This document shows, piece after piece, positions 4,380-46,585 of a stretch of DNA of 61,445 nucleotides (position 1 is the first letter of the stretch; each line of letters starts with the position of its first letter). The translations under genes were made by a program, and so were the position numbers. The notes beneath the pieces are model-generated. The model saw nothing but the letters and a program-made list of their open reading frames with translations. It was not told the DNA's origin and searched no databases. The stretch is from NCBI GenBank assembly GCA_040757775.1, contig JBFLWQ010000022.1, positions 1 to 61,445 on the forward strand. The letters run 5' to 3'. This DNA is from Thermodesulfobacteriota bacterium. GTDB lineage: Bacteria > Desulfobacterota > UBA8473.

Positions 4380-5801
4380 TTAACTGTTAACTGTTAACAT
4401 CTTAATCGCTTTTTCAATTATCTTTGCTTCGCCTTCCTGTAATGTCCGTACATCTAAAAGGAGCCGGGCATCATCTATCCTGGCTATAATAGGGGGGTCG
4501 TAATTTCTTAAGCCCTCCTCTAAGCTCTCAATAGACATGTGGACGGGTTTTATGGAAATCACTTTGGTAGGGAGATCTTGCAGGGGAAGGGCTCCGCCAC
4601 CTGCCCTGGAACTATCGTCCTTAATCTCTATCTGGAAATTCCCGGAACTCTCCTTTCTCAACCTGCGATAGAGACTCTTTGCCCTCTTCTCTATTTCCTG
4701 CAAGGGCATTGTTAACATCCGAAGGGTTGGAATTTCCTCAACTGCTCTTTCCTCTTCCATATATATACGGAGGGTACTCTCCAGAGCAGCAAGGGTAAGT
4801 TTATCTATTCGAAGTGCCCGGTTAAGGGGATTCTCCTTAATCTTCCCTATTACCTCTTCTCTTCCCAGAATTATACCTGCTTGAGGGCCTCCCAGAAGTT
4901 TATCCCCGCTGAAGGTAACCACATCCACACCCTTACTGATTGCCTCTTGCACTGTCGGTTCTTTTGTTAAACCATATTGCCCCAGATCTATCAGACATCC
5001 GCTTCCAAGGTCATCCATTACAGGCAGGGAAAACTCCCTTCCCATCTCTACCAGTTCTTCAAGTTCAACTTCAGATGTAAATCCGACGATTTGAAAATTG
5101 CTGGTATGCACCTTTAAAAGCAAAGCGGTATCATCGGTTATGGCTCTCCTGTAGTCTATTAAGTGGGTCTTATTGGTTGTACCAACTTCCACCAGCCTGG
5201 CTCCACTGCTTCTCATAACATCGGGGATTCGAAAGGATCCACCTATCTCCACCAGCTGTCCCCTCGATACGATAACCTCTCGCCCCCTTGCTATGGTATT
5301 GAGGGCTAAAAGGACAGCTCCGGCATTATTGTTAACCACCAACGCTGCCTCTGCACCTGTAAGTTCGCACAGAATATTCTCCACATGAGAGTAACGGGAC
5401 CCCCTTTTACCTTCCTTTAAGTTGTATTCTAAATTGGAAAAGTTGGAAGCAACCGTTACCAGGTTTTGCAACACCTCAGGGGTTAATAAAGACCTCCCCA
5501 GATTAGTATGCAGGATAACCCCTGTGGCATTAATTACTCTCCTTAAACTCAATTGCCCCATAGTAGAAATCATTTCTGATACCCTCTTGCAAAAGTATTC
5601 GAGGCTTAAACCCTCCTCAGGGAGTATATTGAAATCAGAAGACAATATCCCTACCCGCTCTTCCTCTATCACCTGTTGAACCGTCCTCAACACCAACCAA
5701 CGGGGATATTTTTCAAGGAGTTCCTTAACTTGAATTTGCTGAATCATTTTATCAACAGAGGGAAGCATCCTCAAGTATTTCTGTCTGTCTTTTTCTTTCA
5801 T
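4380..5801 (-). CDS. selA: L-seryl-tRNA(Sec) selenium transferase
   Basis: A 473-residue PLP enzyme that converts seryl-tRNA(Sec) to selenocysteinyl-tRNA(Sec) using selenophosphate. The PLP lysine is Lys301 in TFSGDKLLGGPQAGI. The N-terminal tRNA-binding helical region, the NATGVILHTNLGRS segment and the DLGSG motif are all present. ATG at 5801 is preceded by a GGGGG-rich ribosome-binding site. The last codons contain a triple GTTAACA repeat that carries over the stop into the larA leader. Its presence shows that this genome decodes UGA as selenocysteine, which matters for hdrA at 34443-36413. selB, selC and selD were not seen. Confidence 0.93.
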   Translation of the reverse strand: MKEKDRQKYLRMLPSVDKMIQQIQVKELLEKYPRWLVLRTVQQVIEEERVGILSSDFNILPEEGLSLEYFCKRVSEMISTMGQLSLRRVINATGVILHTNLGRSLLTPEVLQNLVTVASNFSNLEYNLKEGKRGSRYSHVENILCELTGAEAALVVNNNAGAVLLALNTIARGREVIVSRGQLVEIGGSFRIPDVMRSSGARLVEVGTTNKTHLIDYRRAITDDTALLLKVHTSNFQIVGFTSEVELEELVEMGREFSLPVMDDLGSGCLIDLGQYGLTKEPTVQEAISKGVDVVTFSGDKLLGGPQAGIILGREEVIGKIKENPLNRALRIDKLTLAALESTLRIYMEEERAVEEIPTLRMLTMPLQEIEKRAKSLYRRLRKESSGNFQIEIKDDSSRAGGGALPLQDLPTKVISIKPVHMSIESLEEGLRNYDPPIIARIDDARLLLDVRTLQEGEAKIIEKAIKMLTVNS

Positions 5802-45165: not shown

Positions 45166-45198
45166 TTGACAACGGGAGGAGCTTATAATTATTATAAT
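45166..45198 (+). promoter_or_regulatory. Promoter of the fluoride-riboswitch transcript
   Basis: Perfect TTGACA at 45166-45171. Candidate -10 boxes are TATTAT at 45190 (18-bp spacer) and TATAAT at 45193. The transcript would begin near 45200, right before the aptamer. Confidence 0.55.
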
Positions 45199-45208
45199 GC
45201 AAAATACA

Positions 45209-45258
45209 AGGGGATGGGGTCCCCCTGATAACCGCCCGGACATGGGCTGATGACTCCT
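45209..45258 (+). promoter_or_regulatory. Fluoride (crcB) riboswitch aptamer
   Basis: All three conserved helices form. P1: GGGGTC (45216-45221) with GACTCC (45252-45257). Pseudoknot: GGGG (45210-45213) with CCCC (45222-45225). P2: GCCC (45234-45237) with GGGC (45244-45247). The invariant GATG, AACCGCC and GGGCTGATGACTCCT segments of the class are all present. It senses F- with three bound Mg2+. A switch platform follows at 45250-45329. Confidence 0.88.
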
Positions 45259-45329
45259 GCCGCTCAGGCTGCTGCAGCGGTGGAGTCATTACTGTACAAT
45301 AACTAACCCGCTGCAAAGCGGGTTTTTTT
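45250..45329 (+). terminator. Riboswitch expression platform with terminator
   Basis: The terminator stem is CCCGC (45307-45311) with GCGGG (45318-45322), followed by seven T. An anti-aptamer hairpin pairs TGACTCC (45251-45257) with GGAGTCA (45282-45288) and CCGCT (45260-45264) with AGCGG (45276-45280). GCAGCGG (45274-45280) can instead pair with CCGCTGC (45308-45314) and block the terminator. Fluoride binding frees this strand, so the logic is a transcriptional ON switch. Confidence 0.75.
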
Positions 45330-45376
45330 GTGCCTTCGTCGAGGCGCGGTTGGTTTTACGAAAGGAGGACTCCGAA

Positions 45377-46585
45377 ATGGAGCAGATTTTCATTATTGCT
45401 TCCCTTTGGCTTGGATTGGCCGTTACTTCCGCCATAATAGCCTATCACCTGCGCGTATCCATCGCCCTGGTTGAAATTTGCGTGGGTGTAATTACGGCCG
45501 CCGTGGCCGCTTCCTTCGGCAAAACAGAGGATTTGGGTTCAAATCTGGAATGGGTGCGTTTTCTGGCTTCATCCGGAGCTGTCTTGCTGACCTTTCTGGC
45601 TGGCGCCGAACTCGAACCGGATGTGATTCGAACGAAGCTGAAGGAGGTAACTGTCGTTGGTCTGATCGGTTTCATCGCGCCGTTTATGGGCTGTGCTGTA
45701 ATTGCGCGCTACCTCCTGGGTTGGGGACTCCAGGCAAGTTTGCTCTGCGGCGTAGCGCTTTCCACAACCTCTATGGCGGTTGTCTACGCAGTCATGCTGG
45801 AAACCGGCTTCAACAGAACCGATTTCGGAAAGGGCATTCTTGGGGCTTGCTTCATAAATGATCTTGGGACGGTTATTGCCCTCGGTTTATTGTTTGCGCC
45901 ATTCACATACAAGACGGTCATATTTATTGCCGTGACCGCTTTTATTTTGGCGATTCTGCCGTTTACCAGCCGTTTTTTGACCCGTATATACGCTTACCGT
46001 ACCGCCGCGATCAGAACCAAATGGGTGATACTTATCCTTTTCGGTCTGGGCGCTCTGGCGCTTTGGTCGGGCAGCGAAGCGGTGCTTCCGGCATATCTTG
46101 TTGGCATTGTTCTGGCCGAATTCTCGAATGGCGATACTTTTTGGATTCGGCGACTGCGGACTTTGACTGTTGGATTCCTCACACCGTTCTATTTCATTCG
46201 CGCTGGGACGTTCGTTTCATTGCCAGCCCTTGCTTCGGCCCCGATTGTTTTCCTGGTATTGCTGGGGAGTAAGGTGTTATCGAAGATATTCGGGTTATAT
46301 CCAGTTATTGGACAGTTCCGGCGCAGACGCGACGAGCGATGGTATTACACCTTGATGATGTCCACAGGGCTGACCTTTGGTACAATTTCCGCCTTGTATG
46401 GTTTCTCGCATGGCATCGTGACTCAGGGACAATACTCTTTCCTTGTAGCAGTCGTCATCGCGAGCGCCGTCGTTCCTACACTCATCGCCGGACTTGCTTT
46501 TCTGCCCCGGCATCTCCTGCCGCCCGAACCCGACAAACAGGTAATAGCCGCACCGCTCGAAAATGACGTGAGTGAAGAGGGGTAA
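45377..46585 (+). CDS. CPA2/Kef-type cation:proton antiporter under fluoride riboswitch
   Basis: A 402-residue, 11-13-helix Na+/H+ exchanger-type membrane protein. The start is set by AGGAGG before ATG 45377. It shows SGAVLLTFLAGAELEPD, SLLCGVALSTTSMAVVYAVM, GACFINDLGTVIALGLLFA (ion-site Asn-Asp pair), LPAYLVGIVLAEF and TPFYFIRAGTF. The riboswitch suggests a role in fluoride tolerance, by fluoride export or pH/ion balance (inference). Na+/H+ antiporters are a known minority class of fluoride-riboswitch genes. Base composition is visibly more GC-rich than neighbours (GCCGTGGCCGCTTCC), pointing to recent transfer of leader and gene together. Confidence 0.87.
   Translation: MEQIFIIASLWLGLAVTSAIIAYHLRVSIALVEICVGVITAAVAASFGKTEDLGSNLEWVRFLASSGAVLLTFLAGAELEPDVIRTKLKEVTVVGLIGFIAPFMGCAVIARYLLGWGLQASLLCGVALSTTSMAVVYAVMLETGFNRTDFGKGILGACFINDLGTVIALGLLFAPFTYKTVIFIAVTAFILAILPFTSRFLTRIYAYRTAAIRTKWVILILFGLGALALWSGSEAVLPAYLVGIVLAEFSNGDTFWIRRLRTLTVGFLTPFYFIRAGTFVSLPALASAPIVFLVLLGSKVLSKIFGLYPVIGQFRRRRDERWYYTLMMSTGLTFGTISALYGFSHGIVTQGQYSFLVAVVIASAVVPTLIAGLAFLPRHLLPPEPDKQVIAAPLENDVSEEG

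Follow-up and report, generated by a model that had tools for sequence, protein, structure and literature searches.

A predicted fluoride ON riboswitch above an antiporter of a riboswitch-dedicated clade, in a genome without CrcB or CLC proteins

What does a cation/proton antiporter do for the cell when it lies beneath a fluoride riboswitch in a genome where no CrcB or CLC protein is found? Na+/H+ antiporters have been known under fluoride riboswitches since 2012, in the account of Baker et al. 2012 cited in PMC11139923; among riboswitch-controlled classes they rank second, behind exporters, and the only role given for them in that review is pH homeostasis (PMC11139923). As early as 2010, K+ transport genes had been noted downstream of fluoride riboswitches. 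We analyzed one such locus on the forward strand of a 61,445-nt window (the whole stretch of DNA under analysis) from a Thermodesulfobacteriota bacterium.

An earlier note, made from the letters of the sequence, had read the leader as a complete ON switch and proposed a search with the Rfam fluoride riboswitch model. Infernal (cmscan) matched RF01734 at 56.8 bits, well above the gathering cutoff of 34 (E = 4.2e-13). It was the only Rfam family over threshold within the window, and the match was the only over-threshold fluoride riboswitch of the 3.1-Mb, 100% complete genome. The pairing claimed for P1, P2 and the pseudoknot was borne out by 23 related aptamers, in which 97.5% of cells in these helices held standard pairs and 10 of the 14 aptamer pairs had changed on both sides; this covariation was matched by 0 of 500 shuffles, and slid-register controls were at most 62% paired. 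The leader is far more stable than its shuffled versions (z -5.9, and z -6.3 for 45245-45335). Among 16 leaders of the same layout, covariation was strong for the terminator (score reached by 0 of 500 shuffles), moderate for the anti-aptamer hairpin and weak for the antiterminator, the pairing of which was retained in 87% of cells. The anatomy of the RNA is established computationally. The leader would bind fluoride, a specificity that we assume by carrying it over from the known RF01734 class.

Table 1. Features of the leader and the antiporter gene (positions in the window)
Feature	Positions	Strand	Evidence and details
Candidate sigma-70-type promoter, TTGACA, 18 nt, TATTAT	45166-45195	+	11/12 matches; boxes 45166-45171 and 45190-45195
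Fluoride riboswitch aptamer RF01734	45201-45266	+	covariance-model score and covariation
P1	45210-45213/45222-45225	+	aptamer helix
Pseudoknot	45216-45221/45251-45256	+	aptamer helix
P2	45234-45237/45244-45247	+	aptamer helix
Anti-aptamer hairpin	45248-45291	+	folding, covariation; claims the 3' pseudoknot strand in the F--free state; stems 45248-45257/45282-45291 and, inner, 45259-45264/45276-45281
Antiterminator 5' strand GCAGCGG	45274-45280	+	stepwise folding; partner 45308-45314
Intrinsic terminator, 8-bp stem and T7	45305-45329	+	covariation; stem 45305-45312/45317-45324, T7 45323-45329
Shine-Dalgarno region GGAGGACTCC	45364-45373	+	repeats the 3' pseudoknot strand GACTCC; AGGAGG at 45363-45368
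Cation/proton antiporter, 402 aa, PF00999	45377-46585	+	profile, fold, clade membership; start codon ATG 45377

To get a clearer picture of the switch, the growing transcript was folded stepwise in two states, with the 3' strand of the pseudoknot either free or held by the aptamer. When the strand was held, the antiterminator was the minimum-energy fold for transcripts with 3' ends at 45314-45320 (-18.0 to -21.7 kcal/mol), lengths at which the terminator is still incomplete. When it was free, the antiterminator was never the best fold; the anti-aptamer hairpin (-28 kcal/mol) won at all transcript lengths examined, with the terminator forming next. At full length the terminator is the more stable of the two, also when the aptamer is bound (-28.1 versus -22.1 for the antiterminator), so the switch must be kinetic: the mutual exclusion of terminator and ligand-bound aptamer that marks a transcriptional ON riboswitch is found here as a kinetic window, not as exclusion at equilibrium. 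The parts named in the earlier note largely stood. Its antiterminator was placed exactly, the terminator with its seven T residues was confirmed, and the anti-aptamer hairpin exists but is longer than the 45251-45288 proposed; structure, covariation and stepwise folding support the ON reading itself. We conclude that the leader, as the regulatory part of the locus, is almost certainly a fluoride ON switch that ends or allows transcription. According to the model, in the absence of fluoride the 3' pseudoknot strand would enter the anti-aptamer hairpin, the terminator would form and transcription would stop. With Mg-bound fluoride the pseudoknot would persist and leave the GCAGCGG arm free, and this arm would pair with the nascent 5' arm of the terminator, allowing RNA polymerase to read through.

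The aptamer shares P1, P2, the pseudoknot and the conserved core with the crcB-motif riboswitch of the Bacillus cereus type, which is likewise an ON switch acting via a terminator. In B. cereus, however, the pseudoknot strand shares nucleotides with the base of the terminator (PMC11077080), whereas here aptamer and terminator are set apart by a distinct anti-aptamer hairpin and an antiterminator arm. This layout recurs in about 18 relatives; about 6 use an overlapping terminator instead, and several have no terminator, their aptamer lying near the ribosome-binding site with a 3' strand able to pair with it. A GGAG(G)ACTC-like element was seen in 10 of 19 terminator-type leaders, in 9 of 47 other riboswitch-linked members and in 0 of 17 members lacking an aptamer next to them. 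For one member (L119, upstream of position 5001) no aptamer match was obtained, yet a terminator lies just upstream together with a GAGGCTAATGACT-like stretch; this region is possibly a decayed fluoride riboswitch.

A TTGACA promoter had also been claimed ahead of the aptamer. The sequence is indeed present, and the start site predicted from it falls at the 5' end of the aptamer, but promoter-like sites in the region are not above chance in number (2, compared with 1.5 in shuffles); judged by its position, the promoter is plausible. For the coding sequence, TTG at 45350 was rejected as start codon, having no Shine-Dalgarno sequence and differing from the start of the relatives. The repeat of the pseudoknot strand within the Shine-Dalgarno region may provide a second, translational layer of control.

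The gene product matched a single family, PF00999 (93.6 bits, cutoff 26.2), and fell short of the cutoff of TIGR00932, a CPA2 family model (92 versus 238.3 bits). No match to CrcB/Fluc (PF02537) or CLC-F (PF00654, GREGT) was obtained with it, and its 402 residues contain no RCK domain. The AlphaFold model (pLDDT 87.6) shows the two broken helices of the NhaA fold that characterize PF00999. Its best match among solved structures is NapA of Thermus thermophilus (Z 41 over 370 residues, rmsd 3.6, 22% identity), followed by the K+/H+ exchanger KefC (Z 30). In the alignment to KefC, D162 falls on the essential D156, and K303 on K307; the TM5 aspartate is present in 110 of 110 members of the clade described below, and the TM10 lysine in all 109 that have that column. 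The residue before the aspartate is N in 92 and T in 18 of the 110, giving ND or TD where KefC has QD and NapA has DD. A further lysine, K299, lies one helical turn before K303 in 109 of 109 clade members with that column, compared with 0 of 5 other CPA proteins of the same phylum, and NapA lacks it; its placement near the ion site comes from the alignment to KefC. KefC, moreover, is controlled through glutathione adducts, the clade by riboswitches. The Kef/CPA2 assignment of the earlier note therefore holds for fold and site, not for identity: with no C-terminal RCK domain, ND/TD instead of QD and an extra invariant lysine, the protein is not a Kef, and membership of KefB/KefC was rejected. 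It is probably an electroneutral, H+-coupled exchanger of the NapA/KefC fold.

A profile built from nine relatives was run on 395 genomes of the phylum and separated the clade sharply: members scored 468-636 bits (fragments at contig edges lower), all other PF00999 proteins at most 116 bits. Carriers number 61 genomes, in 32 families, and 56 of them have a fluoride riboswitch, compared with 97 of the 334 other genomes. Among the 64 clade copies in the phylum, an aptamer lies within 450 nt upstream of 44 (at 53 nt in genome G179) and 0.6-3.2 kb upstream, with intervening genes, of 10; in 10 it was not seen. In the first 59 genomes, RF01734 was upstream of 9 of 9 close relatives and of 0 of 5 weaker PF00999 matches. 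The comparison of genomic contexts that the earlier note had suggested gave the same picture. In 80 named relatives at 60-85% identity, which span many phyla and include one archaeon (Methanomassiliicoccales), a same-strand aptamer lies within 320 nt upstream in 63, whereas random starts gave 1.5 (maximum 7); in a further 6 it lies 0.7-2.8 kb upstream, and in 11, two of them at contig edges, none was in reach. The antiporter thus belongs to a sharply bounded clade dedicated to the fluoride riboswitch. The general association is that of the Baker 2012 antiporters as far as PMC11139923 conveys them, with which the clade likely overlaps; here it is tied to a single bounded clade that partly excludes CrcB and has an additional lysine. 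A literature search found no paper describing the clade, the CrcB exclusion or the lysine, the Baker 2012 gene lists standing outside that comparison, and we regard these three points as new.

In searches in which control genomes matched as expected, the genome itself gave no match to CrcB or to a CLC protein of any kind (PF00654), and no PF00999 protein other than the one described here. The antiporter is the only transporter of fluoride defence that could be recognised in it from sequence. CrcB is also rarer across the clade genomes (10 of 61, compared with 166 of 334 others, P = 1e-6), and remains so at the level of taxonomic families (8 of 32 clade families and 43 of 74 others, P = 0.003); common descent or a similar way of life may lie behind this depletion. 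CLC proteins, whatever their type, are encoded in 26 of 61 clade genomes versus 235 of 334 others. GREGT, the motif of CLC-F, was absent from the readable CLC gating motifs of the clade genomes, which were EGP or GREGS (a few had no locatable motif), and the same inspection picked up a GREGT protein in the non-clade genome G378. CLC-F is likely missing from the clade genomes, although coverage is not complete. With CrcB in 10 of 61 carriers and no GREGT seen, about 51 of 61 therefore appear to have neither of the known exporters. CrcB is excluded in part, since antiporter and CrcB share one operon in genome G181 and on a Methylocystis plasmid. As the family is nearly always riboswitch-controlled and is found mostly in genomes without the usual exporters, the antiporter may be the main fluoride defence of the cell.

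Three riboswitch-positive genomes without CrcB and without the antiporter clade encode CLC proteins about 450 aa long that carry the motif GKEGP (L181, G305:C22; L180, G341:C45; L182, G193:C86). Another genome, G277, holds 11 fluoride riboswitches, several of them clustered with CrcB on contig C58 (75-82 kb).

The cassette, 45166-46585, stands out from its surroundings in base composition (GC 0.50-0.53 versus about 0.40) and was not found in any of the seven relatives of the same genus or family that were searched. A tree of the relatives mixes phyla (37 label changes, minimum possible 18), which fits transfer, with binning errors also possible. We conclude that the cassette was probably acquired horizontally, a point that, like the clade and the lack of CrcB and CLC proteins in the genome, goes beyond the earlier note. 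Across many phyla the clade gene is usually a single-gene cassette. In an automatic test no UspA gene was found directly downstream in the group at 60-85% identity; in the group at 45-50% identity, UspA follows the antiporter. Plasmid relatives amount to 38 records at 46-57% identity. In all three plasmid regions read, from Klebsiella (L196, NZ_CP018708), Caulobacter (L197) and Methylocystis (L198), an aptamer lies upstream of the antiporter and UspA adjoins it; MutS or CrcB is near in two of the three, and the islands read have MutS, CrcB, phosphoglycerate mutase or enolase nearby. These regions are mobile fluoride-resistance islands, and some of the plasmids are conjugative. Their gene content recalls island GI3 of Enterobacter cloacae FRM, with fluoride-riboswitch-controlled genes alongside UspA, CrcB, enolase and phosphoglycerate mutase, but the published six-gene operon of GI3 has no antiporter, whereas the cassette in the window is a single gene (PMC5533749). 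Phage records yielded no close relative, only one weak partial match at 25% identity. Genes for dynamin-like GTPases recur directly 3' of fluoride riboswitches or beside the antiporter in several genomes (L136, 1688-3556; L148, 1631-3463; L007, 2920-4140; L147, 518-2299; L054, 6203-7927; L100, 6252-7913).

How might the antiporter act? Genomic context alone, repeated in many phyla, argues that it very probably serves fluoride defence, as the earlier note had proposed, and we consider it probable that the whole locus is an acquired, self-contained cassette of one ON riboswitch and one fluoride-dedicated antiporter. A decayed or non-functional riboswitch beside an unrelated antiporter is highly improbable; close relatives without an aptamer do exist (L050), but here the aptamer scores 56.8 bits, its conserved positions and the three alternative helices are all intact, and the same link recurs in many phyla, so this reading was rejected. 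As to transport and protection, the antiporter would most likely act by H+/cation exchange, re-establishing the pH and cation balance of the cytoplasm as HF enters. Entry of H+ against K+ or Na+, as in Kef, would turn trapped F- into HF, which is free to leave; such entry agrees with a site of the electroneutral type and with HF being a weak acid, because less F- is trapped when the cytoplasm is slightly more acid. Kef itself guards against electrophiles through a small acidification. A higher internal pH, conversely, traps more F- as the weak-acid anion. This tells against a conventional Na+/H+ antiporter that expels HF-borne protons and restores pH only, with F- leaving through other, unrecognised routes: such a protein would serve poorly as the only defence where no exporter is encoded. 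The ND/TD motif and a TM10 lysine without a paired aspartate are also closer to electroneutral KefC than to electrogenic NapA. Although NapA heads the fold matches (Z 41) and pH homeostasis is the view taken in the literature (PMC11139923), we regard this alternative as somewhat unlikely.

Export of fluoride by the clade itself, as F-/H+ symport or as F-/OH- or F-/cation exchange, would make it a third bacterial exporter family besides CrcB/Fluc and CLC-F. The 51 of 61 clade genomes without CrcB, the lack of GREGT in their CLC proteins, the depletion of CrcB by genome and by family and the usual single-gene form of the cassette in many phyla all speak for it, as does invariant K299, by placing a further positive charge close to the site. 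For fly Nha1, a relative within CPA2, H+-Cl- cotransport was at one time suggested, but modelling did not support this for human NHA1 (PMC9174904). Moreover, every solved relative is a cation exchanger whose Asp/Lys core the clade keeps, the presence of antiporter and CrcB in one operon suggests different jobs, and ancestry or lifestyle may account for the depletion of CrcB. Direct export is on balance unlikely, and slightly more doubtful is its fullest form, suggested by the sequences, in which K299 would have turned a cation exchanger into an H+-coupled F- transporter and a bacterial and archaeal clade would have replaced CrcB/CLC-F in most carriers.

Pairing one fluoride riboswitch with one antiporter and no known exporter, the locus presents the cleanest form of the question raised at the outset. 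The bounds of the clade, the partial exclusion of CrcB and K299 open the way to a direct test between export of F-, acidification and restoration of pH. The answer would alter the prediction of fluoride tolerance for environmental microbes, including candidates for degrading fluorinated compounds.
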